Source: Pilaira anomala
Lineage: Eukaryota; Mucoromycota; Mucoromycetes; Mucorales; Mucoraceae
NCBI GenBank assembly: GCA_025716855.1
Contig: JAIXMQ010000020.1
Coordinates: 434,001-498,000, forward strand
Direction: 5' to 3'
DNA: 64,000 nt
Positions 20,572 to 60,973 of the stretch are shown one piece after another (positions within the stretch are counted from its first letter, which is position 1; the number at the start of each line of letters is the position of its first letter). Under the pieces are notes generated by a model. That model ran no database searches. It worked only from the letters and a program-made list of their open reading frames with translations, and had not been told where the DNA came from. Made by a program: the position numbers and the translations under genes.

Positions 20572-22440
20572 TAGCCTTAAAATTGATCAGAAGGAAGCAT
20601 AATACAGTACACGTGTATGGCTCTTGATTGATACTGTATTTTATTTTATATAAAAAGTTTACAAGTTGTGCGGTAAGTCTAGAATATAAAATTACGTCCA
20701 AAGATCTAAATTAAATTGCATTTTATGTTATAGTGGAGAAGCACCAAGTGCATTAACAATTAAATGTAAAAATGTTGATCGAAAAATTGGATCTAAACAG
20801 TATAGCTCACTCCAGCGTGGGGTATAAGTGCGAGCTCTTAATCAGGGAAAGTAAAGTTCAACATGAGCATTTGTATGAGTATTGAGCCGGTGAGATACTG
20901 GACTATTGATAGATATCATCTATATATCTTTATAATTAACTACTATTTACACCCTCTTTTTTCTCATTAATAAAATTCAAATCTTAATTTTAAAGACTTT
21001 CAATAACAAAAAGAATGAACGTTTACGTAGTTACTTTAAAATATATTTATCGGCTATCTTTGAATCTTTCAGCTACTGATAACTATGTAAACCATCAAAA
21101 TATATTACCAAAATTGCTACTCAACTAAAAAATTGCGATATCGCTAATGATGTAGATTTTTTTGGCAGTATTATTTTACTCATGTTGGTAGAGATATAGG
21201 AGATTAAGCAACGAGTCAATTACTAAAGTAAATTAATCACATTTTTTCAAACCAAACGCAGTAGTAGTAATTAGCTGCAGAGTTATCTATACGAGAATGC
21301 AGATATTGTCATACCTGTTACATCTACATCAGTAGAATTCACAAATAAGAAGAGCAAGGCTGGAAATTAGATAAAACAAGTTACCGAGATCTCTTCTTTT
21401 CTGTTAAAATATTCACATTTTTGAAGCTCAACTTCAACTTTTCCCAAATGCTACCATTGAAATATCTTCAAACTTCTGATAGGTTGAGAGTGAAAGCCTG
21501 TATGTACTATGCATGCGGTAAATGTTAATTTTTTTTTTTACTTTTTGTCCTGCATATTGTCTTCTTCCCTTTTTTATTCATCTGTAAATTGATTCGATCT
21601 AGCCCTTTATTTAATATAAATCAAAGTGTAACATTGGATTACATGAACACTAGTCATGTTTTTTATAGACAGCTAATATATTCTATACGACATATACCTT
21701 GATTAAATAATAAGCCAGTAGCCTTTCTGAAACCTAATATGATGTAAGCTTTTTTTCATAAGGCAACTGTATGAATCGATGTCCCATTTCTTGTTCTCGC
21801 GAAGAATCCAATGTTTACGGATAGCCCCTTTATTTAGGTGCTGCAGGATTTGAGAAGAATATTCTTTGCCCTTTACTATTATATAACTCTAGTTAGCTCA
21901 AGGTATTGTTATTTATTAGGTAGACGAGCCAAACTATGCACATGACCTAAATTCTAATTGAAAATTTGGTTTTGTAATTATTTCAATGCTTGGCATGAAT
22001 TTTAGACTATTTATTGCATCGAATTGAAATATTTGTTTTTTTTTTTTTATATTACCATTGTACAAAAAGCATATACTTTAAACCGCTTTTTACTTGAACA
22101 TAAAGTATAATACATACATTAGAGACAACGACTTAAAATAATGAATTTTATAAACAGATGTATGTAGTTCCGCAGAATACAGCAGTAATTAAAAATCTTC
22201 AATTCTTTCGTTGACAGTCGCAAAGTCCTTTGTAAATTTAGGATGTATATAACAGAACCGACTTTTTTCAAAATTAATGTAAAGTTTATTACAGTGTTTA
22301 TTTGTTTGACTAACACTGCCACTTTTTTTTTCACTAAAAACAATAGAAAAATGTGTTTATAGCATAGTAAACATTATTTTTACAAACCAATATTTAGATT
22401 TTATTTAGGATATTTGAATTACAAAAGAGCAGAAAAGTGA

Positions 22441-22866
22441 TTAAGGACAAGTAGCAGGACCGGAGTTCTTGTTATAAATAACGTTGAAATAAGATGTCTT
22501 GATAGGCTTACAGTTACTATAAGTGACAAGGAAGTAGTAATTACCTGTCTTTTTTGTACTTCCCAAGTTGACATTGAACCAAGGAGTAGAAACACCGTTC
22601 GTAGTAGGTGCGCGATTCACAAGTTTATTAATTAACTTGTTAGTTCCATACTCGTAAATATCTACGCTAATTGGAGCAGGAGTAGTAGGAGGGTTGGGAC
22701 CAAGATCATAAGAGACTTCCTGACATTGACCAGCAGTAGTAGTAAAGTAAGATGTAGGAGATGTTACTCTGAATCCATCGCATCCATTGTTAGCAGGTGC
22801 TGCAGATACAAAAGAAGAAATGAGAGCCAAGAAGGAAATAGCTTTGAATAAGTTGAAGGAGACCAT
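22441..22866 (-). CDS. Small secreted four-cysteine protein, copy 1
   Basis: A single-exon 141-aa protein with a clear signal peptide (LFKAISFLALISSFVSA) and predicted mature start at about APANNG. Four cysteines (NGCDG, GQCQE, NCKP, ATCP) could form two disulfides. The mature part (RVTSPTSYFTTTAGQCQEV...) alternates hydrophobic and polar residues like a beta-sandwich and recalls the Ig-like N-terminal domain of Kre9/Knh1 cell-wall proteins; that fold is a hypothesis. It differs from copy 3 at only four residues but is clearly diverged from copy 2. Likely cell-wall, surface or extracellular. Confidence 0.8.
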   Translation of the reverse strand: MVSFNLFKAISFLALISSFVSAAPANNGCDGFRVTSPTSYFTTTAGQCQEVSYDLGPNPPTTPAPISVDIYEYGTNKLINKLVNRAPTTNGVSTPWFNVNLGSTKKTGNYYFLVTYSNCKPIKTSYFNVIYNKNSGPATCP

Positions 22867-24056
22867 TTTTAGTTGAGTAGTTGAGATGATTGAATTAATT
22901 TATAATTTACCTTTTTTTTTTTAGCTGTCTAGTTATCTTGTATTTATACTCTTTCCTTTTGACTCATTCGTTCATGTCTGAGCCTTTTTGTTTCCATTGG
23001 GCTGAAGCTAATAAAATTAATTCCTGAGACTTTGTTCTTTTACATGTATCATAGGTCACTATCTAATTATAAAATCAGCTAGCTTTTACTGACTGTTTTA
23101 AAACTTTTTGAATAATATCTGTTGTTTGTGTGGCTTTTAGGCTGTATTATGATTTCTTCGAAACTAAACAAGCCACATAATTATTTGAATGTTTATGTGT
23201 GCTTTCAAATTTATGGTTTTAAATCGTGTTATTCAGCTTAGTCCAGAGTTAAATTAGACATGCAGTAACAAAAAAAAAATGTTTGATTTCTTTTATTTTG
23301 AGTAAACCAAGGTAATACAAAAAAAAAACAATTGTTTGCATAATTTGTAGAACATGAATTAACTACCCTCTTTTTTTTTTTTTTTTTTAACTAATTTTGA
23401 AAAAAGATGTAAAACTTTGAAAATGATCTTCCGTACAATTTTGAAACGTAAATTAACCATTTCTGCTGTCGATTTTTTTTTTGTATATACATTGTTCATT
23501 CAACAACCGTATCAAATGAATTTTCTAAACACTAAACATTTATTTAAATGTATACATATGCACCCTTTAATTTTTTTTTCCACTTTTCAATATTAATACT
23601 TGAACCTCTCAAATTTAAATGTAATAAGCCAACTTGATGAAAAGCATTCCAAAAACTTGTTTACTATTGTTTATAACTAGTAATATATCTAATCATAAAA
23701 AGCCCAGCCCATTGTTTATATTTAAGAACTCTAATTTTAATGTCCCATAATTTTTCCGAATATCCTCAAATGTAACATGTGTACTTTAATTTGTTCAAAA
23801 GAAAACAATGGCCAGGGCAAGACAAATTAAACAAAAACTATAGTCTGCGTCTATCCTTTCATAACAATAAATTGCATAGTCGCACAGTCATTTGTTAATT
23901 AATATATATAATATATATTTAAAAAAATGGCCTTTTACAAACTTAAACATTAAAAATATCAAAATATGTCCACAGGGCAAGGTATTATTTTAAAAATCAA
24001 CATGTGTATGTAGTGATTTATTTATGATAGGTGGACTACAAAAGAGTAGAAAATAG
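22867..24056. other. Spacer between secreted-protein copies 1 and 2
   Basis: About 1.2 kb of upstream and duplicated DNA of copy 1, with poly-T tracts near 22912-22922 and 23371-23388. Nothing gene-like beyond the duplicated-unit landmarks. Confidence 0.5.
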
Positions 24057-24482
24057 TTAGGCGGGACAAGTAGCAGTGCCAGAGTTTGGGTTATAGATAA
24101 CGTTGAAAGGGGATGTTGCAATAGGTGGACACTCATCATAAGTAACAAGGAAGTAGTAAGTGCCACTTCGGTTGGTTTCTCCCAAGTCAACATTAAACCA
24201 AGGGGTAGTAATACCATTAGTAGTAGGTGCTTCATTAACAACATTACTAACGAAGTTGCCTGTTCCATATTCATAAATATCTACACTAATAGGAGCAGGG
24301 GTCTCGGGAGGATTAGGACCAAGATCATAAGACACTTCGTAACATTGACCAGCAGTGGTGGTAAAGAAAACAATAGGAGATGTTACTCTGAATGCATCAC
24401 AATTATCTACAGTTTGTGCAGATACCAGAGAGGAAACGAAGGCTAAGAAGGAAACAGTTTTGAAAATATTGAGAAAGACCAT
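24057..24482 (-). CDS. Small secreted four-cysteine protein, copy 2 (divergent)
   Basis: A 141-aa paralogue with a signal peptide (IFKTVSFLAFVSSLVSA) and the same four cysteines. The mature protein is more acidic than its neighbours: lysines in the KKTG, NCKPIK and NKNS segments of copy 1 are replaced by NRSG, ECPPIA and NPNS. This suggests the middle copy has taken a different surface charge, and perhaps a different role or partner. A single-exon gene, expressed on minus like its neighbours. Confidence 0.8.
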   Translation of the reverse strand: MVFLNIFKTVSFLAFVSSLVSAQTVDNCDAFRVTSPIVFFTTTAGQCYEVSYDLGPNPPETPAPISVDIYEYGTGNFVSNVVNEAPTTNGITTPWFNVDLGETNRSGTYYFLVTYDECPPIATSPFNVIYNPNSGTATCPA

Positions 24483-24545
24483 TTTTTAGTTAAGTAGTTG
24501 AGATGGTTGAATTGATGTATAAGATATTCTTTTTTTTTTATTTAG

Positions 24546-24876
24546 GCAGTTGCCTTGTATTTATACTTTTTTCTTTTTGATTCATGATCTATTATACACG
24601 CTCGAGCTGTTTTTTTTTGGTTAATTCTGATAAATTAATTTCTAAGACTTGGCTCTTCTACCTGTGTCAATACGCTACTAAAACTAATACTAAAAGTAAC
24701 TAGTTTCTACAGCAGTTGCCTTGTATTAATACTTTTTTTCTTTTTGATTCATGATCTATTATACATGTTCGAGCTGGTTTTTTTTGGTTAATTCTGATAA
24801 ATTAATTCCTAAGACTTGGCTCTTCTACCTGTATCAATACGTTACTAACTAATAATAAAATTAACTAGTTTCTACA
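24546..24876. repeat. 166-bp tandem duplication upstream of copy 2
   Basis: GCAGTTGCCTTGTATT... at 24546-24711 is repeated immediately at 24712-24876 with few differences. The unit spans the proximal promoter of copy 2, doubling whatever control elements lie there. Copies 1 and 3 have only one equivalent unit. Confidence 0.85.
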
Positions 24877-25901
24877 GACTAACTTTTTGTGAACTCTTCA
24901 ATAAATCCAATACGTAGCATTTGGATCTTTGAATAGAACTAAAACATAATAGTATTTATGATGTTTGCGTGATTTTTAGACTACATATATTATGAATATT
25001 ACAAAAACAAACTAATTACCTAATTATTTGAATGTTTATGTATGTTTTCAAAGTCTTTGTTTTTGTATGTGTGCTTGACTAAAATAGCCTACATAGAATA
25101 TTTTTTGAATCAAACATGTGAAAAACAAAAATGTCTAATATTCTATCATTTTGAATAAACCAAGGTTATACTCAATGTATTAAAAACAGAAAACAAAATC
25201 GTTTGCATAATTTGCAAAATATGATTTACCCCCTTTTTTAGCAATATTTACTAAAAAAAAAAAAAAGGCGTAGTAGTTAAAAATTTCGAAAGCAATCTCT
25301 CCGTACAGTTTTGAAACACAAATAACAGAATTTGCATAAAAAAATTCTGCGCATTCATAAATCGTATTTTGTATGAATTTGCTAAAAGCTAGATATGTTT
25401 AAATGTATATTGACCCTGCAAGTAATTCTTTTCTGCCGGGTTTTCAATAATAACCTTTAGAAGTGCATCATATTTAAAAAAAAAAAAAAAAAAAAAAAAA
25501 ACTCCCCATTTAGCTGTAATAAAAGTACATTAAAACTTGTTTGTACTCTTGGAATCTAGCCATGAAAACCTGGGTTATTGATAAAAAAGCTTAATTTTGA
25601 TTGCGTACAAAAAATATGTAAACAAAATACATTCTAAAATTACTAAAAAATACAATGGTTGGGACAAGAAGAATCAACTGAAATGTAGGATTTGCGACTA
25701 ATCCTTTTCGAACAATAAATTTAATAATCGCACAGCCATTTGTAGATTAAAATGCTGTAGAGCCCAACTCAAATGCTCTGAGATCGAGCGTGTTTTTTTC
25801 AATAACTAAGAATATGTTTACAAGACAGTAGAAATTATCTGAACAAATAAATTTTTAGATTTTATTTAGGATATTTGAATTACAAAAGAGCAGAAAAGTG
25901 A
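24877..25901. other. Spacer between secreted-protein copies 2 and 3
   Basis: About 1 kb of duplicated-unit DNA with poly-A runs at 25250-25266 and 25475-25500. No gene seen. Confidence 0.5.
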
Positions 25902-26327
25902 TTAAGGACAAGTAGCAGGACCGGAGTTCTTGTTATAAATAACGTTGAAATAAGATGTCTTGATAGGCTTACAGTTATTATAAGTGACAAGGAAGTAGTA
26001 ATTACCTGTCTTTTTTGTACTTCCCAAGTCGACATTGAACCAAGGAGTAGAAACACCGTTCGTAGTAGGTGCGCGATTCACAAGTTTATTAATTAACTTG
26101 TTAGTTCCATACTCGTAAATATCCACGCTAATTGGAGCAGGAGTAGAAGGAGGGTTGGGACCAAGATCATAAGAGACTTCCTGACATTGACCAGCAGTAG
26201 TAGTAAAGTAAGATGTAGGAGATGTTACTCTGAATCCATCGCATCCATTGTTAGCAGGCGCTGCAGATACAAAAGAAGAAATGAAAGCCAAGAAGGAAAT
26301 AGCTTTGAATAAGTTGAAGGAGACCAT
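25902..26327 (-). CDS. Small secreted four-cysteine protein, copy 3
   Basis: A 141-aa paralogue almost identical to copy 1: four substitutions (L/F in the signal peptide, then T/S, N/D and S/N). The immediate 3' flank (ATTTTTAGATTTTATTTAGG...) and the first tens of bases upstream are also nearly identical to copy 1, while more distant flanks differ. Same signal peptide and four cysteines, presumably the same function. Confidence 0.82.
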   Translation of the reverse strand: MVSFNLFKAISFLAFISSFVSAAPANNGCDGFRVTSPTSYFTTTAGQCQEVSYDLGPNPPSTPAPISVDIYEYGTNKLINKLVNRAPTTNGVSTPWFNVDLGSTKKTGNYYFLVTYNNCKPIKTSYFNVIYNKNSGPATCP

Positions 26328-26859
26328 TTTTAGTTGAGTAGTTGAGATGATTGAATTAATTTATAATATACTTTTTTTTTTTTAGTTGTCTAGTTATCTT
26401 GTATTTATACTCTTTCCTTTTGATTTATTTGTTCGTGTTTGAGCCTTTTTTTTTTCTTTTCTGGGCTGAAGCTAATAAAATTAATTCCTGAGACTTTGTT
26501 CTTTTACATACTTGTATCATAAGCTACTAATTATAAAACTAACTAGCTTCTACTGACTATTTTAAAACTCTGAAGTTTGAATAGAGTTAAAAATAAAACA
26601 ATTTTTGGCGTGTGCGTGGCTTCGAACTTAACTATATTTAATTGCTTTTCGAAACCGAACGAGCCACTTGATTACGTGAATGTTTATGTATGCTTTCAAA
26701 GTCATTGTTCTTAATCTCTCTGACTTAGCCCAGGGTTTATTTTTGAAATAGATCTGTAGTAACAAACAAAAGTGTCTGATTTCTATTAATATATACCCTT
26801 TTGAATAGACCAAGATAATACATAAAAATAATCGTTTTCATAATTTGTAGAACGTGAAA

Positions 26860-26899
<40 letters not shown>

Positions 26900-27633
26900 G
26901 TAATACTGAAGCTATAAAAGGCTAGAAAATGATCTTTCCGTACAATTTAAAACTGTATGACTTTTCCGCACAAACATTGTTCTTCAATAATTGTATCGCA
27001 TAATTTTTTTAAACACTAGAAATTTGTGGACCCTGTAAATTTTTTCTTTTTTATCCTTTGGTTTTCAATGATAGGTGTAACCTATGCAAATAGTTACATT
27101 CAATTTAAAAGATAAAAACTATTTCAATGTAATAACACCACTTGAAAAGTGCTTTAAATTTACCTGCTATAGTTTTTAGTTGTAGTATATACCTAATCAT
27201 GAAAAGTCTGGCTTATTGTTTATAAGTAATCTAATTTTAATGTCGCATGTTTTGCTGAATATCCTTTGGTGTGTAACATTTTGATCGCGTACAACACAAA
27301 CGTGTAGAAAAAATGTACATAACTAACCCAAAAGAATAATGGTTGGGATAAGAAGGACTAAGTAAAGCGTAGGATCGGTGTCCATCCTTTTCGAATGGCG
27401 AACAGTAAAATATACATTTTTATTTAAAAAAAAAAAAAAGAAATGAACAAATGTATTTATTTTTAGCCACACACACAGCTTTTACAGTGCATTTTATTCT
27501 TTAATCATCTAGTCACACTGGATAACAATATTTTTTAGTTATCTCAAAAAGGGATCTTAAAGCGGGTCTAAAAGAAGGTTCTCTTTAATTATCCAGTTTA
27601 TCCAGTATATTTTCTTTGAAAGTATTATTAACT
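26328..27633. other. Upstream DNA of copy 3
   Basis: About 1.3 kb of promoter and duplicated-unit DNA with a poly-T of about 35 bases near 26863-26898. No convincing gene. Confidence 0.5.
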
Positions 27634-40493: not shown

Positions 40494-40829
40494 TGTCAGA
40501 AAGAAGTTTATGTATTTGTTGTAGTAATACAGATATGTGTTACTGTCAACAACAACTTCTCTAATATAAATACCTTGGTATTTTATGTAAATAAAAACGA
40601 CTTCTTTCTCACATTGCTAGTCTTTTACTATAACCCTAAGCTTAAGTAATTGATAAAGGTTTTACTATCAATTGCTCAAGTGTAGGGCTATATTATAAGA
40701 CTAGAACTTGTGAGAAAGAAGTTGTCTTTATTTACATATGTTTACTAAGATATTTATATTGGAGAAGTTACTGTTGACAGTAACACATACTTGTGCTACA
40801 ACAACAAATCAATAAACTTCTACCTGACA
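40494..40829. mobile_element. 336-bp foldback (near-complete palindrome) element
   Basis: The left half starts TGTCAGAAAGAAGTTTATG... and the right half ends ...CATAAACTTCTACCTGACA-like sequence (AAACTTCTACCTGACA). The two 168-bp halves are reverse complements over nearly their whole length, meeting at ATTGATAAAGG/TTTTACTATCAAT near 40661. Shared internal blocks include GTTACTGTCAACA and AACTTCTTTCTCACA. A single-stranded copy would fold into one long hairpin. No coding sequence and no clear target duplication. Confidence 0.8.
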
Positions 40830-46698: not shown

Positions 46699-48476
46699 TT
46701 ATTCCTCTTCTTCTTCTTCAAGTGACTTGAATAAAGGTTTTCCATAATCAACTAAATATTTTGCTTGAGAATCACCAGCTTTTGCCAAATTAAAAATCAA
46801 TAATTTTGTATGATCTCTACACCAACGATGTAAACGTACACATTCTTCTAAAGCTTCTCTACTATGAGTCCAATCAGTATCTACACCAATTGTACCAGTT
46901 GTAACGGCAATAAATATACGCCAAGAAGCAATGACTTGTTTCAACATATCATAATTCTTGTCAATTAAAGCCATATGATACCAAGCGAAAATAGGTAATA
47001 ACATACAGACGCATAATAAACTAAATAAGCCATAACCTGTTAACTTCCAAAGTAAGCAAATGAGAGTACTATAAAAGGGTAATGCTAAAAAGAATGAAAA
47101 TATAAGTTTATCTTGAGCAACGGATTCAGTATAAGGTTCATAAGAATCAATTAAACGACCCAAAAGATAAAATGGTGAGTTGATGATGATGCCAGGTAAG
47201 AAGAAGGGTATCTGAATTAATAATCCAATCCAAGTGGATAATAATTTTAAGGTGGCTTTCGTTTGTGTAATCTCTTGATTTTCGTACATACTAATATCAC
47301 ATGCATTTAATCGAAGACTTTTCAATTTCTTGGAAAACATGAGTAACCGCTCTTTTAATTCAATACGTTCCTTTTGATATAATCCCTTCTTTCCTTCTGT
47401 TTGTTCTGGATGAAACAACCCCACAAAGCTACGTGTGTGTACGTTAGTATTTATCATTAGTTTTATACATGTATCTATCTATCTGTATTTTTACCTTTGA
47501 GATACGTGAACGTATTCTTCTAATCGAACACCTCTTGAGTCTCCGAATAAAACAAATCTCGCTTCTTTTGCTGCATTCGTCGTATCCCTACATAATATTC
47601 CATTCATTTAAATAAACTTCCTTTTTCTTTTCCCTTATCTACACATAATTTACCAATCAGGACTATTGATCGTACTACGTTCAACACCCTTTGCAATACG
47701 ATCTGTCAAATTTTTCACTATAGATTTTGGATCATTATGAAACGCTTCCAGATCATCTACTCTCTGAATAATTGGGTCTCCATATCTAAAAATATAATTT
47801 TTTTTTTGTGTGTGTTGTTAGTCATCATCATGATTATTTAAAAATAAATATAAACTTTACTCGACAACTGCTTCACTTCTCCATCTATTTTTTGTACTAT
47901 AGGTGATACCAACCGGTATAATCGAAATAGTTTTTGGTCCATCTTTTCTGTTAGCCAATTGAGTAAGATATTCGAAGCTAGCCCAAGATATACCGTCCTT
48001 AAAAGGTAAATGATTAGGCGCGGTATATGATGTACCTATTACATCGTGTTAAAACTTTCTTATTATTTTTTTGTGTAAAAAAAAATAAAAAATCTATTTA
48101 TACCTTCTGGAAATAAAGCAACTACAGCGCCCTGATCGAGAGATTGTATTGTGGATTCAAATAGTTTAGCATTACTATGCGTTTTGGTATCTACGGGTAA
48201 TACGCCTGCAGCTTTCAATATTTGTCCAACTACGGGTATACGAAAAAAACGAGCAAGCGCCCAAAAATGACAAGGTCTTGAATGAGGAAAAGTAGCAATC
48301 AATACAATGGGATCCAATACCATATTGGAGTGGTTGGCTGCAATAAGTAAAGGTCCTTCGGCAGGAACAGGTGTTCTACAAATAATCTTTATCTTTCGAA
48401 AATATACCCATAATGCTAACCTCGAAAGGTATTGTAGTGTGATATATGTTTTTCCTTCTCCTTGTTTTTCTGGCAT
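46699..48476 (-). CDS. PlsC-domain glycerolipid acyltransferase (GPAT/DHAPAT-like)
   Basis: Five exons on minus (48476-48104, 48035-47861, 47785-47654, 47587-47495, 47428-46699) give 500 aa. Acyltransferase motif I is ANHSNMVLDP and motif III is ALFPEGTS, split by the first intron; IPVGITY fits motif IV. The C-terminal half has at least three hydrophobic spans (IPFFLPGIIINSPFYLLG, SFFLALPFYSTLICLLW, FSLLCVCMLLPIFAWY) and ends in a run of Glu. Fungal Sct1/Gpt2-like enzymes use acyl-CoA to acylate glycerol-3-phosphate or DHAP at the ER, the first step of phospholipid and triacylglycerol synthesis. Substrate assignment is by family resemblance only. It converges on HEN1 with about 50 bp between stop codons. 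Confidence 0.85.
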
Positions 48477-49043: not shown

Positions 49044-49045
49044 TA

Positions 49046-49898
49046 CAGGGTTTCCCACTATTTTTGGAAATTAATATGGAAAAACTTAAAAGTTAATAAA
49101 CCTAAGTTTGAAAGTTGATGGAATAAATTTTGAAGATTAATTAAATAAAGTTTGAAAAAGCTAGTTAGTAATTTGATTCTTACATAGACGTTTTAAAGCT
49201 CTACCTGTATCAAGGTTTTCTAAAGCGATAACTAAGGAGGATAATTATTGTTAAAGAACGAGTTTTTTTTTTCTCTCAGTTTGATTGGGTCATAGTTTTT
49301 TCTTTTGATTGAGTCTTTTTGACTTCTCAAGAATATCGCAGGTTTCTGGGATGTAGTCCTTAAGTTAATTACGATCTTCTTGAAATTTAATACAACAGCA
49401 AGATCCCTGTTCCATAGTCGATACTTTATATTCTCTTGATCCTTTTCAGTTAATGCCTGTTTCTCCAAACAGTTTTGATTTAAGCATCTAAAACACAAGT
49501 TATTTAAACCTTTCGTTGATATAAAATATGTAAGAAATAACTTAAAAGCCCATGGCATGTTGCTTTTGGATCAGTCGAACGTTGGTGTGACCTTGGATTA
49601 ATGCATTCTTTAAAAGTTGCTAGCTTGTTTTCACAAGAAGGACAGATACTAGAAGTTTTGAACTCATCCAAAAGATAAACTTTAAACCTTTCTTTTCGTA
49701 AGCTATTTCTTAATCCGTTTCCTTTAATGGGTTCGTGAAATCTTGTGCGGGAAGCAGACCAGTTTCCCAAAATTAAGATACAATCCTTTCCAAACTTTTT
49801 TCTGATGTTTTTTGATAAACGTTTGGTTGATTGAACTTCATTGATATGGGCATTGAGCTTCATCTTTCTAAAGGGGATTAAGTCTTTCTTTCTCTTAT
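49046..49898 (-). repeat. Left inverted arm containing an inverted Fanzor 3' fragment
   Basis: Read on minus, this arm encodes the same Fanzor segment as the right arm: DLIPFRKMKLNAHINEVQS through CPSCENK to the 108-aa segment at 49232-49558 that contains NRDLAVVLNF. The fragment has no gene start and no RuvC-I half, so it cannot be functional alone. Homology stops abruptly at CTTAT (49898). Subterminal motifs such as AAGTTTGAAAGTTGATGGA and AAATAAAGTTTGAAAAAG are repeated near the tip. Confidence 0.92.
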
Positions 49899-50106
49899 TT
49901 TTATAAAATAATTGAAAAAGTATGGTATTCAAAAATGAGATACGAGATGCACTGGTTAATTAGTGTAATTGCTTACGTAATAAAATGCAAACAAGTTTCT
50001 TTTACCAGTCCCAAAAACCGATAACCAGTTGGATAAATGTTGTCAAAATCCTTCTTTTTTTCTTCTTCTTCGTTCTTTCCTCTTTCTTAACAATTTCTCC
50101 CTTGAG

Positions 50107-52316
50107 TAAAAGTGGAGGGATTCGTTGAACAATATACCTCTGTAAGTATTTTTAACGGGCTTAAATGTATTATTTTGCTCACATTTATTTTCACAGGTGA
50201 ATACATTATCAATAGACACTGATGATGATGGTAAAAAGGTTATAACAGTAAAGTCTTCAATTACTGGAATAGGATGAAAACCTCAGTATCTTTCTATTTT
50301 GAAGAAACTCGTTCATGAAGTTCATATTATCGTTACCTACTATGTATTCGTTTACAAGATACATATTATCCAAGAGCTTAATCTTAATTTATAAGAGTAT
50401 GCAGTCCAAAGTTTTTACAAGGATGTGTTCCTATCACTTTTAGACAGTAAAACTGTGAATGTTAATAGACTATCGGGCAAAGTAAAGACATATAGAGAGT
50501 TGATAAACAAGTATAAAGCATCGTATTGTAGAGATTCATTATTCACGCCAATCAAACTAACCTCTGCTCAACAAATAGCCTCATATGAAGCTACAAAAAT
50601 ACAAACTGCTTGTACTAATGCAATCACTAAAGATTTTGGAAATAAGCTGAGAATGGTTGTCAATAAACTTATTGGACTGAAACACCGTATCTCACAATTG
50701 AATAACGATTTGAAAAAGCAAGGCTACTCAAAAGAGGAAACCAAAGCCAAAATTAAAAGTAACATTCTAGAACCTGCTACACAACTTGAACTGGCTATTT
50801 CATCAAGAGATATCAGCCGAATCCCAAAAGAATTCCAAGATCAAAAGGCTATTATCAACTATAGTAAGGACATATTTTCTGCTTAGCCTGAAACTTACAA
50901 GTTTAAAAAGATTCCACTTATTATGATGTTGCTGCAAATCCAGGAAAACACTTACTTGCTTATTTTAAACTAGCAGGGATATGCGAGGCTAACAAGTTCA
51001 AATTATTACAATGCTTTCCTGTTAGAAAGACTTTTATTCCGTCATATATGACTATTGATACTATGACATTAAACTATCATACATTAAAAAATTCCCAAAG
51101 GCGTAAATTGGATAAAGGGCATATCTGGGGAAAAGTCCTAAATTTATCTTCAAAACCTTTCAAAGATCAAGGCCTAGACAGCTCCATGAAGTTAAGAGGA
51201 ACTATAATGACAGATAGCATAGGTATTTTTGTAATAAAACAAAATTTCGACACGTATGTAATCCCAAGGCCAGTTTAGTGGAAGAAGAAGAACTTAAATA
51301 TATTGAACAAATCCCAAACGAAGAACTACGATCTACAGATGGAAAATGTGTATTCATTGATCCTGGTCGACGTGATCTAATTTATTGTATGCTCGAAGAT
51401 AGCACAGTCAATAACAAAAAAATTTACAGGTACACGAGAAATCAAAAAGCATAGGAAACAAAATAAACAAAATTTAAAAAGCTGCGGCAACAATTGAAAC
51501 CAAAAGACATTCAAGATTGCGAAAACAAACCCAGCAAGTGCTCGCCACTCACAGTAAAGAAGGAAGCATTTGTAGAATGCTTAAAGATTATAGCTGAAGT
51601 TACTTCTAAGATGCAAGAATACTATTCAAATGAAGATGTAGAGAAGGATAAGAGAAAGAAAGACTTAATCCCCTTTAGAAAGATGAAGCTCAATGCCCAT
51701 ATCAATGAAGTTCAATCAACCAAACGTTTATCAAAAAACATCAGAAAAAAGTTTGGAAAGGATTGTATCTTAATTTTGGGAAACTGGTCTGCTTCCCGCA
51801 CAAGATTTCACGAACCCATTAAAGGAAACGGATTAAGAAATAGCTTACGAAAAGAAAGGTTTAAAGTTTATCTTTTGGATGAGTTCAAAACTTCTAGTAT
51901 CTGTCCTTCTTGTGAAAACAAGCTAGCAACTTTTAAAGAATGCATTAATCCAAGGTCACACCAACGTTCGACTGATCCAAAAGCAACATGCCATGGGCTT
52001 TTAAGTTATTTCTTACATATTTTATATCAACGAAAGGTTTAAATAACTTGTGTTTTAGATGCTTAAATCAAAACTGTTTGGAGAAACAGGCATTAACTGA
52101 AAAGGATCAAGAGAATATAAAGTATCGACTATGGAACAGGGATCTTGCTGTTGTATTAAATTTCAAGAAGATCGTAATTAACTTAAGGACTACATCCCAG
52201 AAACCTGCGATATTCTTGAGAAGTCAAAAAGACTCAATCAAAAGAAAAAACTATGACCCAATCAAACTGAGAGAAAAAAAAAACTCGTTCTTTAACAATA
52301 ATTATCCTCCTTAGTT
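50107..52316 (+). pseudogene. Fanzor (eukaryotic TnpB-like RNA-guided nuclease) pseudogene
   Basis: A short first exon ends near 50141 with GTAAGT; after an intron (50142-50196) the frame continues VNTLSIDTDDDGKK... Three in-frame stops follow (TGA 50275, TAA 50392, TAG 50884), a frame change near 50900, another near 51260, and two more stops (51452, 51464). Recognisable parts: RuvC-I FIDPGRRDLIY with its Asp at 51359; ILGNWSASRTRF where RuvC-II lies, lacking an obvious Glu there; zinc finger CPSCENK with a second Cys pair CLNQNC; and RuvC-III WNRDLAVVLNF with Asp at 52141. A 53-bp insert between CHGLL and CLNQNC also breaks the frame. The fold is clearly Fanzor/TnpB-like; the gene is dead as it stands. 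Confidence 0.88.
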
Positions 52317-52500
52317 ATCGCTTTAGAAAACCTTGATACAGGTAGAGCTTTAAAACGTCTATGTAAGAATCAAATTACTAACTAGCTTTTTCAAACTTTA
52401 TTTAATTAATCTTCAAAATTTATTCCATCAACTTTCAAACTTAGGTTTATTAACTTTTAAGTTTTTCCATATTAATTTCCAAAAATAGTGGGAAACCCTG
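51648..52500 (+). repeat. Right inverted arm of the Fanzor element
   Basis: Reverse complement of 49046-49898 with equal length. It contains the 3' end of the Fanzor gene and about 180 bp of 3' non-coding DNA up to the TIR tip. In characterised Fanzor and TnpB systems the guide RNA lies at this end of the element, so a guide-RNA sequence, if any, would be duplicated in both arms; this is inference. Confidence 0.9.
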
Positions 52501-52502
52501 TA

Positions 52503-55115: not shown

Positions 55116-57780
55116 CTACACTAAACAAAGGAACACCATCAATCCGAACATTCTGCATCTGATTTCGAGAACAGTTCGAGCATGTCTATTTCCTTCTGTT
55201 ACAAACATATTAGCAATATCTGCATCAGCTCGTTGTCTACCAATATAATTTAAAAACCGGAGAGCAGTAAAACGATCATCGTAAAAGGGTAAGATAGTAC
55301 CGAGATTGTTAAAAACAGAGTGAACGTATAGGGCAAATGTTTCAATGTTGGCTGTCTTGTCTGTTAAGATATTTCTTTCGGCTTGACTAAAATTATTATC
55401 TGCATTTTTCATTGCTAAGATTTTTCTGTTTGTTTTCTTGAACCCTGCGCGTGTGTAATACTCGTCAGTTGAATATTTCCGTACTTGATGAGGATCTTCG
55501 CCATGCCCATCAGAAGCTGTAAAGAGGGTTTTTAGTCCAGGATCAACACCCCACAAATGGAATCTTTGGTTAATTTCTTCACCAGTAAAATCGTTTAAGT
55601 CAAGATCTGGAAGTGCTGTCTGTTGTTGTCTTGGACCAACCAAGATAAAATAAATACCATAACCATCTGTTCGCACCATGTTGGTGAACATTTCTTTACC
55701 ATTATTATGAAAAAAATGAGTACTTAACATACAAATTAACGAAGATGATACACGATGATTATAATACTTACTAATTTAAATCAATTCTTAAGAGACTAAA
55801 ATCAAATACTTCACTAATAATCTTGTCGCAGCCTCATGTTTCGTATTATCATCTGCATTTTCATCTAATATGCCCATATCTACTTCGGTTTTGTTTTGGA
55901 CCTTCAGATTAAAGATCTCAAATGGGCTATGTCGGTTTCAATATACTTTCGGGTAAAATTGTACATTGGAACAAGAGTGAAAAGTTTATACTTTCTAACT
56001 GATTCAGACATACTAGGTCTGAAACAGTTTTGGATATCGATATTGTCTCGGTTTTCATGGTGCAACCTTGGATTTCTTAATTGTTCCTGCGTTGTTGCGA
56101 TGAAATTAATTAGGAACGCCAGTTGATTATTTTCTAAGTTTAAAGCAGTTCCGAAAAGAGAGTGATCCTGAATGCACCGAAAAACCAAGAAAGACAGCCT
56201 ATTTTTTTTTTTTCTGCTGAAATTTTTAAATTGGCTGCTTGTTGATAAAAAACTTTTGATCCATGCGTATGTTATGTCAACTTGGACTTCGCCGAAGGTT
56301 CTGATGTTATCGTTATTGTATGCCTCGAAATATTGTTATATTCGATGCATATGTTGTAAAAAAAATCCAGGGTTAGCAGATACTGAGGTCAGAGTAATAT
56401 GTACGTTTGTAATTCTACAATCAGCGATAATAATGTTAGCTAGATTTAAATTGCCGGGTGTGTTTTCTACTGTTTCAGGCCATGCTAAACCAGTCCTTGA
56501 ATTAGTTGAATTGTTAAGGACGAAATGACAGAGTGAATTGCTATACGGCGCAGTTAAATTCTAAAAAACCATCAAGAAGAAAAGTTAGCAACTACATCTA
56601 TATTTACATTGTATCACATTATACTTACAAAAACTTCTTTCAATCTAATTTTTATATATTTCCTAAGAATTTTCGAGTAATTTTCAGAAACATGAAGAAT
56701 GAGGGTCTGAGCCGATATATTAGCGAGAGAGGCAAGTGCATTGGCGTGAACAGTATGACCAGGTTCCATTGTGACACTACTATCGAAACCTGGCGATCAT
56801 ATTCTTCAAAAACTTCGTTAATGTCTGCTCGAGGAAGACGCTGGTTGGTGTTTGTTATATTTTTTCCCGATACCTTTTGTATACAAGCGTAGAAAAAAGC
56901 TTGGTTAAATATTATGGGTTGCAAAGGTATGTTTGCTGACAAGCGACGCCGTATATAGTAAGAAGCGAACAATTGGGATTTGATTGCAACTACACGGTAA
57001 TCATCAACAAATTCAGATATTCTTCTTAAAAAGATATCTTTTTCTTCACTTGGAAAAATAATCGATGCTTCCAAACCAATTTTTCTTACAAATCTTCAAT
57101 ATACCGTTTCAACGTTCTCTTCAATATATTCACTAGTATTTTGTATGTGACCAGGATATATGATAGACCGATGTAAAGAGTGAGGCTGTTCAGCGTTATA
57201 GCAACCTTTGCTTATGAAATCAGGGCATGGTTGATAACAGCAGTATTCCGGGAATCATTTATTCGTTGAATTTTTTCATTTGCTAGTGTTAATCTATTTG
57301 CTTTTTTTTTGAGCCAGTATTAAAGTAGTGTTCTGTATACCGGTTCTAATTGCTGCTGTGATTGAACGGCTATGTTCTGTGGTAGCAGATGACACAGAAG
57401 TGGAACCAGAATCATTCTCTCTTTTTCTCTTTCTTTCAAGGATCTCATCTTTTTAATAGATGGTTTCAGTATATTGTATGTTTATATATTATGTTAAAGA
57501 AACTTACCTGCGCGTTGTGGAACACAGTTCTTATTCATTCGGCAAAAGAGACTTCTGGTGTTCTTATGGCCTGTCTGACCACAATTCTTGCAACGCTCTA
57601 ATGGCAGGTTAAATTATTAGAAAAACAAATTTCGAAAATAATGCAAGTAAAGCTTACCTTCTTCTGGTTGCTCCTCTGGTTACTCCTCTGTGTGTGTAGG
57701 GGCAGCAGTATCACCAGCTATTAAACGGTTGGCCTTCTCTATTTTTTTTATCCCGGATGTAGGCCAAGTTATTAAGTCTT
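55116..57780 (-). pseudogene. Decayed zinc-knuckle / RuvC-like nuclease gene (possible second Fanzor/TnpB-like element)
   Basis: Read on minus from about 57780: IEKANRLIAGDTAAPTHTEE, then an in-frame TAA, then zinc knuckle CKNCGQTGHKN...C. After frame breaks come a Cys-rich block (CCYQPCPDFISKGCYN), KIGLEASIIFPSEEKDIFL, YYIRRRLS and ADINEVFEEYDRQ (to 56652), a piece at 55904-56188 with NFIATTQEQLRNPRL, and the 3' part 55730-55116 with TNMVRTDGYGIYFILVGP, WGVDPGLKTLFTASDGHGE and KYSTDEYYTRAGFKKTN. The DPG motif after a TDG block is like RuvC-I of TnpB/Fanzor proteins, and RQRADADIANMFV fits the region before RuvC-II; later motifs are missing. A nuclease origin is probable, its exact family not certain. 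Confidence 0.6.
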
Positions 57781-59131
57781 TGTCTATGACTCTAATATGG
57801 AAATAAAACAAGTGAAACGAAATAATGAGACTAAGGTGCTGTTATTTATATTGTTTAAATTTTGTACATCAATATATCTTTTATCATTGATTATACTATT
57901 TAATGGGGTGGCTCCATCTTTTACTTGATTAATATCCGGGTATCACAAAACTCTCAATGTGTAGTACATATATTATTTCTAATCTAGAGACTGTCAAAGA
58001 CCCAGACTCTTTTCCAGACTCTTTATTTTAGTATAATGCAACCTCTTTTCACATTGATAAAAATTAACAAACTCTACGTTTACTTATTAATATATTCATC
58101 TTACAAAAGTTGTTATTGTAACTAATGGAAAAACAATGAGAAAAAAATTGATAAACCTGCTTCATTAAAAAATATAAGTTCTTGTAGTTAAAGATAAATT
58201 TGATATATTTAGAAAACCTGTTGTCCGCTCTCTTGTTGTTAACTAAATAAAGATCCTAAGAAGTCTCATCATATTTTAAGTCTTTCTCCCCCTTTTTTTT
58301 ATTAAATTTCCAAGATACATAATATCTTAATCAATATTTGTCAAACATAATTAAATATAGAATGGCCTACTGCTTTCTGAAAAAGTTATTTCAAGTAAGT
58401 ACATCATATATCATTTTCTATACTATTTTACACATTGTTTTTGTTTAATTTGGTTCTTCTATGTTTTTGTATGTATGAAGCTTGGAACATTTTAAAGGTA
58501 TAATAAGCAAATGTTTTTATAATAGCTTATATGTATCTGTTTCGTATTTAATTTAAAAATTTATTTTAATAGGTAAGCCATTCGTGATTATTATCGCTTT
58601 TGCGACATGTTTCTGCTTTCATAGAGTATCTCTTACTGTAAAGCTATTCTGCTGCTACGGATGTTTCTGTTCTAAAGCACTATTTTAGAGGCTCTTCAGT
58701 AGCTATTTTAGTTGAAACATTTAAACCAATAAAAGTCAAATTATTTTTACTTTGTATTCGTCCCCCTCCCCCAATTTCCAAATGATTCCCCCAAGCCCCC
58801 CATTGTAACCCTTATTGTCATATAAGGAAGGAATTAGGGACAAACGTAAAAAGACTGCTGAATTACAAAAAAAAATCCTTGGGTGTGTTGATATCTTTAG
58901 TCAAAATACTTGTAGAATACCTACTGTTTTTTGAATATGAATTTGCGCTGGGATTAGAAAAATTTTGCATTGACCTTAAAAAAATACTTGCGCCAAAGTA
59001 AAAATAATTTTGGCGTTGCTTAGTAATAAATTTTGCGCCAAGAGATTAAAAAAAAAAAAATATAATAACCAAAAGATTGTAAGCGATTCATTTGCTTTTT
59101 TCTTTTATTTAATTCAAATATTCTAACAAAC
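57781..59131. other. Gene-poor interval upstream of transposase
   Basis: About 1.35 kb. An ATG at 58362 followed by ten codons and a GTAAGT could be a first exon (MAYCFLKKLFQ) but no continuation is convincing. Near 58990-59045 the motif TTGGCG / GCGCCAA recurs three times within 60 bp upstream of the transposase gene, possibly regulatory or a TIR remnant. Confidence 0.4.
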
Positions 59132-60523
59132 ATGCAAAACTTTAGCGAATTTATTACTAATAGAGAAATTATTTCAGATAATGATATGGATACTTCATCT
59201 GATGATTATATGGAAGTAGATGAGGAACAGGAAATTGAAATTGACCATTTTAATTTGAGTAAAGAATGGGTTGAGAAAATAAAACAAATTGGCAATTCAT
59301 TATCTTGTGTACATGAATTTATGGATGTTGATGCACCAGAAGAAATCAAAGATGAAGATTCATTTGGCGATGCATTTCTTTTTGCAGAATCAATGCCATT
59401 AAAGAAAAAGCACAAGACTCCTGTAGCTAAAACTCGAGGCTCTTACAGGAAATATACTGTTGAACAAATTGAAAAACTCTTTGATTTAATCATTGAAGAA
59501 GGCTTTACTACCAAAGATGCAGCTTTAGTCACTGGGATTAATATTCGTACTGCTCAAAATTATGTAAAAACATATAATAATGATCCGCAGAAACGACTTC
59601 CAGGATCTTATAACAAACCTCGTGGAAGACCTTGTTCAAAGTTAACTGAGGAGCATTCTAAATTTCTTGTTGACTATGTCAAAAAGAATACTACTGCTGT
59701 ATTAGATGAGTTGAAGTTAAAACTTTTTGAGAAATTTGAGGGTTTGAAAATCTCTATTTCTGCCATTCACAAACATTTAGTACATAAACATAACATTACT
59801 TTAAAGAAACTTGAAAAGATACCAGCAGCGAGAAATTCTGACAGAGTAATAGCATTGCGAAAAGCGATTGTTGAGCAGTATAAGAATGATACAGCCATGG
59901 ATTTTTCCAATAATTGTGTTTTCATTGATGAAGCAGGTTTCAATTTACATACTCAGAGAAACCACGGCCGTTCATTAAAAGGCACACCTGCAAAGAGCAC
60001 TGTACCAACTGGAAAGGGGGTTACATTTACAATTTTAGGTGCAATTTCTCAAGCAGGTATCATAAATATTGGGGTTAAAAAACCAGAATCAGCTTCTTCT
60101 AAAAAAAGAAAGGCAGATGGTAAGGAAGTAAAAATAAATGGTAAAGTTGGAACAAGAACTGAGCACTTCTTGGCCTACATAACCAACGTAATGAATACAC
60201 TAGATAAAAATAATATAAAGGGTCAGTATATTGTTATGGATAATGCACCTATTCATAAGCCAAAAGTGATCAAAGCATTAATCGAAGAACGAGGACATAA
60301 ATGCATATATTTACCACCATATTCTCCTTTCTTGAATCCAATTGAGGAATTTTGGTCAAAAGTAAAAGCTGGTGTTAGAAGAACACCATTGACGGCAGAT
60401 GATCGTCTCACAGATCGTATATGTGAATCGGCTAGAAAAGTAACAAAAAAAGATTGTAAGGGGTGGATTGAGCACTCAAAGTCTTTTTTCGAGAAGTGCT
60501 TAAATGAGGAAAGAAATATTTAA
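59132..60523 (+). CDS. Intact Tc1/mariner-type DD34E transposase
   Basis: A single-exon 463-aa protein. The N-terminus is acidic (DDYMEVDEEQEIEIDHF). It is followed by a helix-turn-helix region (YTVEQIEKLFDLIIEEG...KDAALVTG), a basic RGRPCSK linker and a second helical block. The catalytic triad is complete: FIDEAGFN, VMDNAPIHKP and PYSPFLNPIE, with 34 residues between second Asp and Glu. It is homologous to the frameshifted enzyme at 43.8 kb through its whole length but is clearly another lineage. No terminal inverted repeats or TA-flanked ends could be found around it, so either the element ends have decayed or the gene is no longer part of a transposon. Confidence 0.9.
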   Translation: MQNFSEFITNREIISDNDMDTSSDDYMEVDEEQEIEIDHFNLSKEWVEKIKQIGNSLSCVHEFMDVDAPEEIKDEDSFGDAFLFAESMPLKKKHKTPVAKTRGSYRKYTVEQIEKLFDLIIEEGFTTKDAALVTGINIRTAQNYVKTYNNDPQKRLPGSYNKPRGRPCSKLTEEHSKFLVDYVKKNTTAVLDELKLKLFEKFEGLKISISAIHKHLVHKHNITLKKLEKIPAARNSDRVIALRKAIVEQYKNDTAMDFSNNCVFIDEAGFNLHTQRNHGRSLKGTPAKSTVPTGKGVTFTILGAISQAGIINIGVKKPESASSKKRKADGKEVKINGKVGTRTEHFLAYITNVMNTLDKNNIKGQYIVMDNAPIHKPKVIKALIEERGHKCIYLPPYSPFLNPIEEFWSKVKAGVRRTPLTADDRLTDRICESARKVTKKDCKGWIEHSKSFFEKCLNEERNI

Positions 60524-60630
60524 AATGGTAAATTATTAGTCGTTAGGGGTTCAGCGTTCAATAGACGTACTTTGAATCCTCAATGAGATTTGAATATCAT
60601 AAAACATAAACATATTATTTTGAAGAAATA

Positions 60631-60632
60631 GC

Positions 60633-60684
<52 letters not shown>
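60631..60684. repeat. (AAT)n microsatellite
   Basis: Roughly 18 perfect units of AAT/ATA downstream of the transposase gene. Confidence 0.95.
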
Positions 60685-60690
<6 letters not shown>

Positions 60691-60973
60691 CAATAAAAGC
60701 AATAAAAAAAAACTTATTGACATTATAGGATAAATAAATCTTTCAGTGACATAAACTCAATTCATAGTAAACGCATTGAATAGTTTAAATAATAATTTAC
60801 AGCATATGATTTTCTAATTTTTTGACCAAAAACAGTTTGAGACTGTATAAAAATTAATAAAAACATAGCCAATCACATAAATTTATACACATGACGCAGC
60901 AAAAAAATTTCCTTGGTTTTGTTTTTTTTTTTCTTTTTCTTCCCAACACTCATAAAAACAACAACTCTTTGCT

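Follow-up and report, generated by a model that had tools for sequence, protein, structure and literature searches.

Gene-containing inverted arms in a Fanzor1 transposon family of Pilaira anomala and the copying of sequence between them

The element and its Fanzor1 gene

The window analysed here comprises 64,000 nucleotides of the forward strand of contig JAIXMQ010000020.1 (GenBank assembly GCA_025716855.1, positions 434,001 to 498,000) from the fungus Pilaira anomala. At 49046-52500 it contains an element of 3455 bp, an old member of a family of non-autonomous transposons of this organism that insert at TA and code for Fanzor1. The element consists of two inverted arms of 853 bp each around a centre of 1749 bp (Table 1). 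A preliminary description, made from the letters of the window, had read this element as a TA-flanked Fanzor transposon turned into a palindrome, with equal arms that each carry the 3' end of the nuclease gene around a decayed centre. Alignment of 49046-49898 with the reverse complement of 51648-52500 bears this out, with 0 differences in 853 positions and lengths equal to the base, as compared with 540-627 differences when the comparison is offset by 1-10 bases; each arm holds the 3' third of the gene. A repeat finder reported the arm pair as 862 bp, including slight flank, 1749 bp apart and 99.77% identical over 862 positions. The repeat ends at a TA on both sides, before 49046 and after 52500, the flanks are unlike, the tips read CAGGGTTTCCC, and the 22-base tip with its TA occurs in the window at these two places only (up to 3 mismatches; chance expectation 0.00). 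Long inverted arms are a foldback-like trait, which this element has; a direct-repeat search of 47-55 kb found no arms made of tandem repeats, only five T- or A-rich or chance families.

Table 1. Coordinates of the element in the window (position 1 is the first letter of the window).
Feature	Position	Strand	Remarks
Left TA target duplication	49044..49045	.	Flank CATATGTA; border not CATA
Left (5') arm, 853 bp	49046..49898	-	Inverted full copy of the 3' end; 0/853 differences; allele type
Left-arm make-up	49046..49898	-	Tip, 3' untranslated region, last third of the Fanzor gene
Left-arm segment (arm positions 302-709)	49347..49754	-	Absent from the 5' arm of ordinary copies; contains copies of RuvC-II, zinc finger and RuvC-III
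Unique centre	49899..51647	+	Short 5' leader and first two thirds of the broken Fanzor1 gene
Putative first exon (50113-50141) and first intron (50142-50196)	50113..50196	+	Predicted; comparison with relatives
RuvC-I motif FIDPGRRDLIYC	51353..51388	+	Relatives aligned to PpFz1
Right (3') arm, 853 bp	51648..52500	+	Last third of the Fanzor gene, 3' untranslated region, tip
408-bp segment	51792..52199	+	Missing from both arms of five relatives
RuvC-II glutamate and first zinc-finger cysteines (YLLDEFKTSSICPSC)	51869..51913	+	Relatives aligned to PpFz1
Putative 53-nt intron	52006..52058	+	Same letters on the left at 49488-49540; predicted protein P0002 supports the splice
RuvC-III motif LWNRDLAVVLN	52129..52161	+	Relatives aligned to PpFz1
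12-bp gap site, both arms	52467..52468	+	Left counterpart 49078/49079; arm comparison
Right TA target duplication	52501..52502	.	

The gene of the window copy is broken, as had been supposed from its stops and frameshifts: the longest ATG frame on the gene strand has 143 amino acids, and a whole-genome protein search recovers the copy in pieces with stops. The putative first exon starts with GTG, where relatives have ATG, and the putative 53-nt intron, which sits between RuvC-II and RuvC-III, starts with TT in both arms, where the relatives L025 and L037 have GT (copies elsewhere in the genome are numbered with the letter L). What we take to be RuvC-I, RuvC-II and RuvC-III, in the window copy and its relatives alike, are distributed such that the first lies in the centre and the other two at arm positions 588-632 and 340-372. 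The RuvC acidic residues and the zinc finger of the window copy are spread over broken frames and are continuous in P0002. A Pfam scan of the broken frames at 51494-52042 and 50425-50886 returned no family at 0.001.

Better preserved relatives identify the gene. Copy L023 has an unbroken frame of 601 amino acids, up to 100% identical to proteins of P. anomala and related to 53 proteins, including some from Thamnidium, Rhizopus, Parasitella and Gilbertella, and most of these homologues bear PF26935. Its nearest solved structures are PpFz1 (536 bits) and SpuFz1, the Fanzor1 of Spizellomyces punctatus (157 bits); P0002, with its spliced C-terminus and RuvC-III aligned to PpFz1, reached 504 bits with the latter. 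PpFz1 of Parasitella parasitica (PDB 9cf0; PMC11423790, as far as its available passages go) is thus the closest solved relative, with the RuvC-I, RuvC-II and RuvC-III regions aligned, and differs by an insertion that is skipped here (query 454-460 spans chain 986-1090). The whole-genome protein search also brought up a sister Fanzor family of 56-57% protein identity, at C172:13872-15686, C171:559329-561143, C146:7123-8937 and C24:343068-344882. No DDE transposase of its own was found in the element, whose long frames are Fanzor pieces only. There are at least 197 DDE_3 matches in the genome and, among the matches listed, none is linked to the element's tips; the tip pattern occurs at 54 places, 51 of them on known copies, and the other three have no DDE_3 or DDE_1 within 3 kb among the matches listed. 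A first reading of the frame at 55116-55730 as a further Fanzor was not borne out, with no Pfam family and no solved-structure match below E 0.7.

The preliminary description had also proposed that the arms duplicate any 3' guide-RNA region, such that convergent or divergent guide transcripts could form long dsRNA. As sequence the duplication is real, both arms reaching the tip and the TA; guide transcripts from both arms and dsRNA would be possible consequences of it. Of 26 right ends 17 were aligned, and these do not vary in their last 22 bases; among the nine left out of the alignment, L028, L040 and L047 differ in these bases. A terminal stem of about ten pairs is predicted at either end of L022 and at the right end in L037, and not for the window copy, and four folds of the last 148 nt were none better than shuffles (z 0.01 to 0.94).

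A palindromic family with one junction

A whole-genome search with the arm found at least 56 places (40 of 59 candidates scored), and a search with the centre found 41; relatives with and without long arms, both of which the preliminary description had suggested looking for, exist. We compared 31 copies with that of the window, 32 in total, setting aside L052 (71% over 589 bp). Arms are called full, or short when they are without positions about 302-709 (408 bp). The most frequent arrangement, in 15 of the 32, is a short 5' arm of 326-449 bp opposite a full 3' arm (L021-L024, L026-L031, L033, L034, L036, L038, L039), some of these 3' arms bearing smaller gaps or an insertion. Two full arms occur in the window copy and in L025, which has an insertion near its 5' tip (2/32); L032 and L035 have a full 5' arm, a truncated centre and the 3' tip (2/32); and both arms are short in L043, L045, L047, L048 and L049 (5/32), L047 and L048 being without slightly more. 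In these five the 408-bp loss takes RuvC-II and RuvC-III from the gene. Five further copies (L037, L040, L041, L044, L046) are non-palindromic with a different 5' end, only the short 5' side is visible in L050 and L051, and L042 is an arm fragment. The 5' end is therefore replaced by an inverted 3' end in 24 of the 32 copies, or in 26 with two fragments.

Since ordinary relatives too have long inverted arms, the long arm is a family trait. The long arms of the window element, which had been singled out as unusual, are thus shared, and what remains particular is that both are full-length and identical; two equal arms are not the rule, as most palindromic copies keep unequal ones. Two observations on single copies may be added here. 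The 5' arm of L025 and the 3' arm of L039 are each broken near the tip by about 0.9 kb of other sequence, probably nested insertions, and L023 (C143:254191) and L024 (C143:362030) are near-identical with the same flanks in opposite orientation on one contig, which makes them a segmental inverted duplication and not separate insertions.

The 5' region of the five non-palindromic copies is about 0.75 kb long, unrelated to the arm, and 85-92% alike over its main stretches. The 5' tips of L040 and L041 read CTGGA.TTCCCATTGTTTTTGG, and these copies start after CATA with CTGGATTTCCCATTGTTTTTGG or a near match, which agrees with the 3' tip CAGGGTTTCCCACTATTTTTGG at 18 of 22 bases (manual count). The non-palindromic copies look like Fanzor1 elements of the usual kind with short terminal inverted repeats (TIRs).

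Wherever the 5' junction of a palindromic copy can be read (26 copies), one and the same inner junction links arm and leader, and L040, L044 and L046 have another. The junction reads TTATCCTT|ATAAAA in L032, TTATTTTTATAAAA in most others and CTCATATAAAA in L040, L032 being the sole 5' junction with the CC of the 3' side. By our own reading of these letters, the join overlaps by about one base and the homologous arm would measure about 857 bp, with CC versus TT at its inner edge. In a tree of 23 centres with more than 1100 letters each, rooted on the L040 type, the 21 palindromic copies form one clade (support 99) that excludes L040 and L044, and within this clade the other 20 copies group together as the sister of the window copy (support 97); the window centre is 86-93% identical to other near-full-length centres. 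One clade in which the window copy branches first means that the palindrome arose once, before that copy split off, and most simply the 408-bp deletion came after the split. We infer from its ordinary architecture and its outgroup centres that the L040 type, on which the tree is rooted, is the precursor.

A palindrome private to the window copy is ruled out by the junction common to the palindromic copies. This also overturns the proposal that the window copy palindromised itself by hairpin or fold-back repair: the event belongs to a founder, with one junction in 26 of 26 copies and one clade of 21. The single junction fits a template jump in gap repair, which makes a hairpin unnecessary; the founding mechanism itself is read from the end states.

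Copying between the arms and its alternatives

The preliminary description had suggested gene conversion from arm to arm around a decaying centre, and the relatives bear witness to several independent events of this kind. Comparison of the 5' with the 3' arms of the 15 copies with one short and one full arm, at thresholds of 75% and 70%, gave 23 class columns, made up of 5 substitutions and 18 indel or deletion-edge columns, 13 of the latter within a single 14-nt gap. The 5' class is found in the 3' arm of the five copies with two short arms, and the 3' class in the 5' arm of the window copy, L025, L032 and L035. The copies with two short arms are placed apart in the tree: L048 with L027 (support 97-98), L043 with L034 (99), L049 and L047 with L028 (98-100; L035 joins them in the constrained-tree run), and L045 with L022, L023, L024 and L031 (84-85). 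A single origin of the five was rejected, at a cost of 139 log units, by the approximately unbiased (AU; p 6e-45), Shimodaira-Hasegawa (SH; p 0) and Kishino-Hasegawa (KH) tests. Conversion from the 5' to the 3' arm has thus taken place several times, on independent branches. Conversion from the 3' to the 5' arm is likely to have occurred at least once, a placement of L025, L032 and L035 all outside the deletion lineage being rejected by the AU test (p 0.006).

Divergence between the two arms of one copy points the same way. It is 3.9-7.7% (mean 5.5) in 13 copies with unequal arms, L024 (same flanks as L023) and L039 (interrupted 3' arm) being left out, versus 0.9-3.7% (mean 2.7) in the five with two short arms (Mann-Whitney p 1.2e-4), 5 of 828 positions (0.6%) in L025 and 0 of 853 in the window copy. 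In addition, where the window copy has its 12-bp gap, a gap of 10 bp is found in either arm of L049. An old split of the arms, taken from a BLAST identity of about 84% in arm positions 1-301, was considered and rejected, as gapped alignment of the ordinary copies' own arms gave 91.5-97.2%.

In the window copy the last conversion was recent. We counted 48 private substitutions over the 1641 conserved columns of its centre and 23 over the 808 of its arms, the latter always present in both. The extent of its 12-bp gap is matched in no other arm that covers the place, that of the L048 3' arm being larger. From a branch length of 0.0385, about 66 differences between the arms would be expected since the split, as compared with the 0 seen. 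It is these private changes, common to both arms without any difference between them, that make the last conversion recent, and the numbers would bound it within roughly the last 5% of the branch. As this copy may have been full-armed on both sides from the start, what is shown is homogenisation rather than a change from one arm type to the other.

The best explanation, which we regard as probable, combines a palindromic founder, a deletion in one arm, mutual conversion of the arms and a recent homogenisation in the window copy. In the founder, the original 5' end of about 0.75 kb with its short divergent tip would have been replaced by an inverted 3' end, 853-857 bp long, that takes in a third of the gene and is joined just before the leader with an overlap of about 1 bp; these end states are observed, and the route between them is proposed. 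This could have happened in gap repair after excision, the left flank, with a tip alike at 18 of 22 bases, invading the wrong (right) end of the template, copying inward and then jumping. The palindromic form then multiplied, and one line lost 408 bp from its 5' arm, as its copies document. Thereafter the arms served as each other's repair template, copying from 5' to 3' removing RuvC-II, the zinc finger and RuvC-III, and the likely copying from 3' to 5' restoring or keeping full arms. The window copy split off before the other palindromic copies, its arms being made identical recently, after its private mutations.

Several points weigh against this explanation. With 18 of the 23 class columns at indels or deletion edges, few of them are independent; the window arms have the 3' class at 16 columns, the 5' class at 2 and neither at 5, and across the 14-nt gap L038 and L039 have the 5' state in their 3' arms. 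The placement of L025, L032 and L035 that the AU test rejects is not rejected by the KH (0.082) and SH (0.38) tests, nor is a placement of L025 alone outside the deletion lineage rejected at all (p-AU 0.395), and the window copy could have been full-armed on both sides all along. In the arm tree, the arms of L045 and L048 are not mutual nearest neighbours, which argues against recent conversion there. Finally, the window arms are known from the assembly alone, in which a collapse of the arms is possible, and gap repair is read from end states only.

Among the alternatives, it is unlikely, to a degree that still merits attention, that the window copy was an ordinary one whose short 5' arm was recently overwritten by its own full 3' arm. 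Conversion in this direction is likely elsewhere, given the AU result of 0.006, which KH and SH do not share, and the junction of L032; nevertheless, the window copy branches before the other 20 (support 97), such that the deletion is most simply later, and grouping the window copy and L025 in a clade of their own fails the AU test (0.031), albeit not KH (0.0504) or SH (0.375). An assembly artefact, with one arm copied onto the other or two copies joined via their tips, would account for a perfect identity of 853 bp in an otherwise decayed copy, and yet we deem it very unlikely: the repeat reaches no further than the TA on either side, beyond which the flanks differ, 13 ordinary copies keep arm differences of 3.9-7.7% in the same assembly, L025 has two full arms that differ by 0.6%, and the homologous arms of the family are independent of the window copy.

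Two other alternatives are extremely improbable in our view. Fold-back repair makes palindromes in principle and, acting within the window copy, would give the perfect arms, but the junction is common to 26 of 26 readable copies, 21 of them in one clade; in the founder, fold-back repair is possible. Selection, for instance on transposase-binding ends, would explain why the arms are alike, the 22 invariant bases of the aligned right ends being in its favour; it does not account for a gap and 23 private substitutions that the two arms of the window copy share, nor for the loss of the same 408 bp from the second arm on several branches.

The flank motif, known systems and neighbouring observations

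For the flanks we counted palindromic copies, leaving out L024, L035, L041, L042 and the non-palindromic ones. A TA borders the 23 left ends and 22 right ends counted, in agreement with duplication of a TA target; it is absent from the left of L035 and the right of L037. At the 5' side of the element the border reads CATA in 13 of 23 copies (background 5.6% of TA; p 3e-11), as compared with 2 of 22 at the 3' side when read likewise (p 0.35; Fisher test of 5' against 3', 0.0012). Among 21 paired copies, CATA stands on the left only in 12, on the right only in two (L031 and L047) and on neither side in seven (p 0.013), while ATA is found at 17 of 23 left and 9 of 22 right ends. The window copy, flanked by TGTA on the left and TATA on the right, is without the motif. 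TACATA on the right occurs in 2 of 22 copies (p 0.012), too few to claim use of a guide from the 5' arm. These two, L031 and L047, have it on the 3' side of the gene instead of the 5' side, which is what one would expect had a crossover between the arms inverted the centre.

The motif thus lies on the side away from the guide end and resembles a target-adjacent motif (TAM). In the available passages of the cited papers, the TAM of SpuFz1 is CATA (PMC10432273) and that of PpFz1 is reported as ATN (PMC11423790), the latter source giving the motifs of SpuFz1 and GtFz1 in the opposite order to the former. Since the 5' end is a copy of the 3' end, a transposase blind to the difference between ends should give symmetric flanks, and the asymmetry of CATA therefore points to the nuclease with a guide on the gene side. 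This hints that the nuclease, not a transposase, sets the CATA of the flank, with the caveats that the arms are not fully equal and that the sample is 21 pairs.

It is possible, though doubtful, that the whole family is one of swapped ends, in which Fanzor would cut empty donor sites that are refilled from an intact copy, and in which the same repair would have made the palindrome and copied the arms, deleting the nuclease's own active site. Such cutting of the emptied site by TnpB is reportedly the subject of work by Meers and others from 2023. In bacteria, TnpB cutting of the emptied donor site is described in a passage of PMC11870625. Somewhat more credible, though still short of an even chance, is that CATA on the gene's 5' side stems not from Fanzor but from the transposase, by way of a preference based on how short and full arms differ. 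These do differ, by the 14-nt gap, the 408-bp gap and some substitutions. Against this, in the 9 of 21 pairs where both ends start with CAGGGTTTCC, CATA is on the left in 7 of 9 and on the right in 0 of 9; and the CATA side is kept although the end was replaced, since L037, L040 and L041 have CATA and L044 has CATG, by eye, the tip of L046 being unreadable.

Parts of this architecture have counterparts elsewhere, which we compare as far as the accessible text of each source allows. SPu-1 of Spizellomyces punctatus (PMC3627910) likewise has one Fanzor1 gene, no transposase and a TA duplication, and its ordinary short-tip kind corresponds to the five non-palindromic copies here; its TIRs are of 33 bp, in contrast to arms of 853/853 or about 440/853 bp that hold a third of the nuclease gene. 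Bari1 of Drosophila rhopaloa and other long-TIR Bari elements (PMC4877112) belong to a TA-inserting, Tc1-like family with short or long identical repeats depending on the line; there, repeats of about 250 bp flank the gene, identical arms are read by the authors as young, and a succession from precursor through palindrome to converted arms is absent from the passages available. Galileo and Tetris (PMC2775673, PMC4168063, PMC4079207) share long inverted repeats and structural variety with our family, gap repair or template switching being invoked (PMC4168063) and homogenisation suspected (PMC4079207). However, Galileo belongs to the P superfamily and Tetris is without apparent coding capacity, and their arms are internally repetitive, with no part of a gene. 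TIR-TIR recombination in bacterial insertion sequences (PMC3004938) also acts between the ends of one element, by a crossover that inverts the centre, whereas the present family shows mainly conversion; L031 and L047 could be inversions. In the open-licence literature searched, as far as its text was accessible and the supplements of PMC3627910 aside, we found no Fanzor element with gene-containing arms.

The family bears on the role of Fanzor for eukaryotic transposons: one genome holds the precursor type, the palindromic form and several conversion products side by side, which allows the nuclease gene to be followed together with the repair events and the motif in the flanks. If the flank bias does stem from Fanzor, nature itself would provide evidence of a nuclease at work in its host; otherwise, the series is still a clear example of a transposon that placed a duplicate of part of its gene in its ends and later damaged that gene repeatedly by copying.

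Elsewhere in the window and genome, other inverted structures were seen. A stretch at 58906-60792 with a DDE_3 frame of 484 amino acids has a 98% inverted copy about 4.1 kb further on, at C113:498941-500847, beyond the window. The whole unit recurs at C4:56694-64671 and partly on C127, with single arms on C83 (96%) and partial or diverged ones elsewhere (84-92%), and it looks like a composite of two inverted Tc1/mariner-like elements around a cargo. Other DDE_3 matches form inverted pairs of equal score a few kb apart (for example C171:492152+/498922-, C113:75472+/82390-, C150:53702-/58996+), and elements with inverted arms may be common in the P. anomala genome. Within the window, 40494-40829 is a near-palindrome of 336 bp, 80% identical to its own reverse complement; three related tandem segments at 22347-26948, 73-85% alike, are probably a local gene duplication; and the left neighbour of the element, a minus-strand frame at 48063-48476, encodes an acyltransferase domain (PF01553, 58.4 bits).

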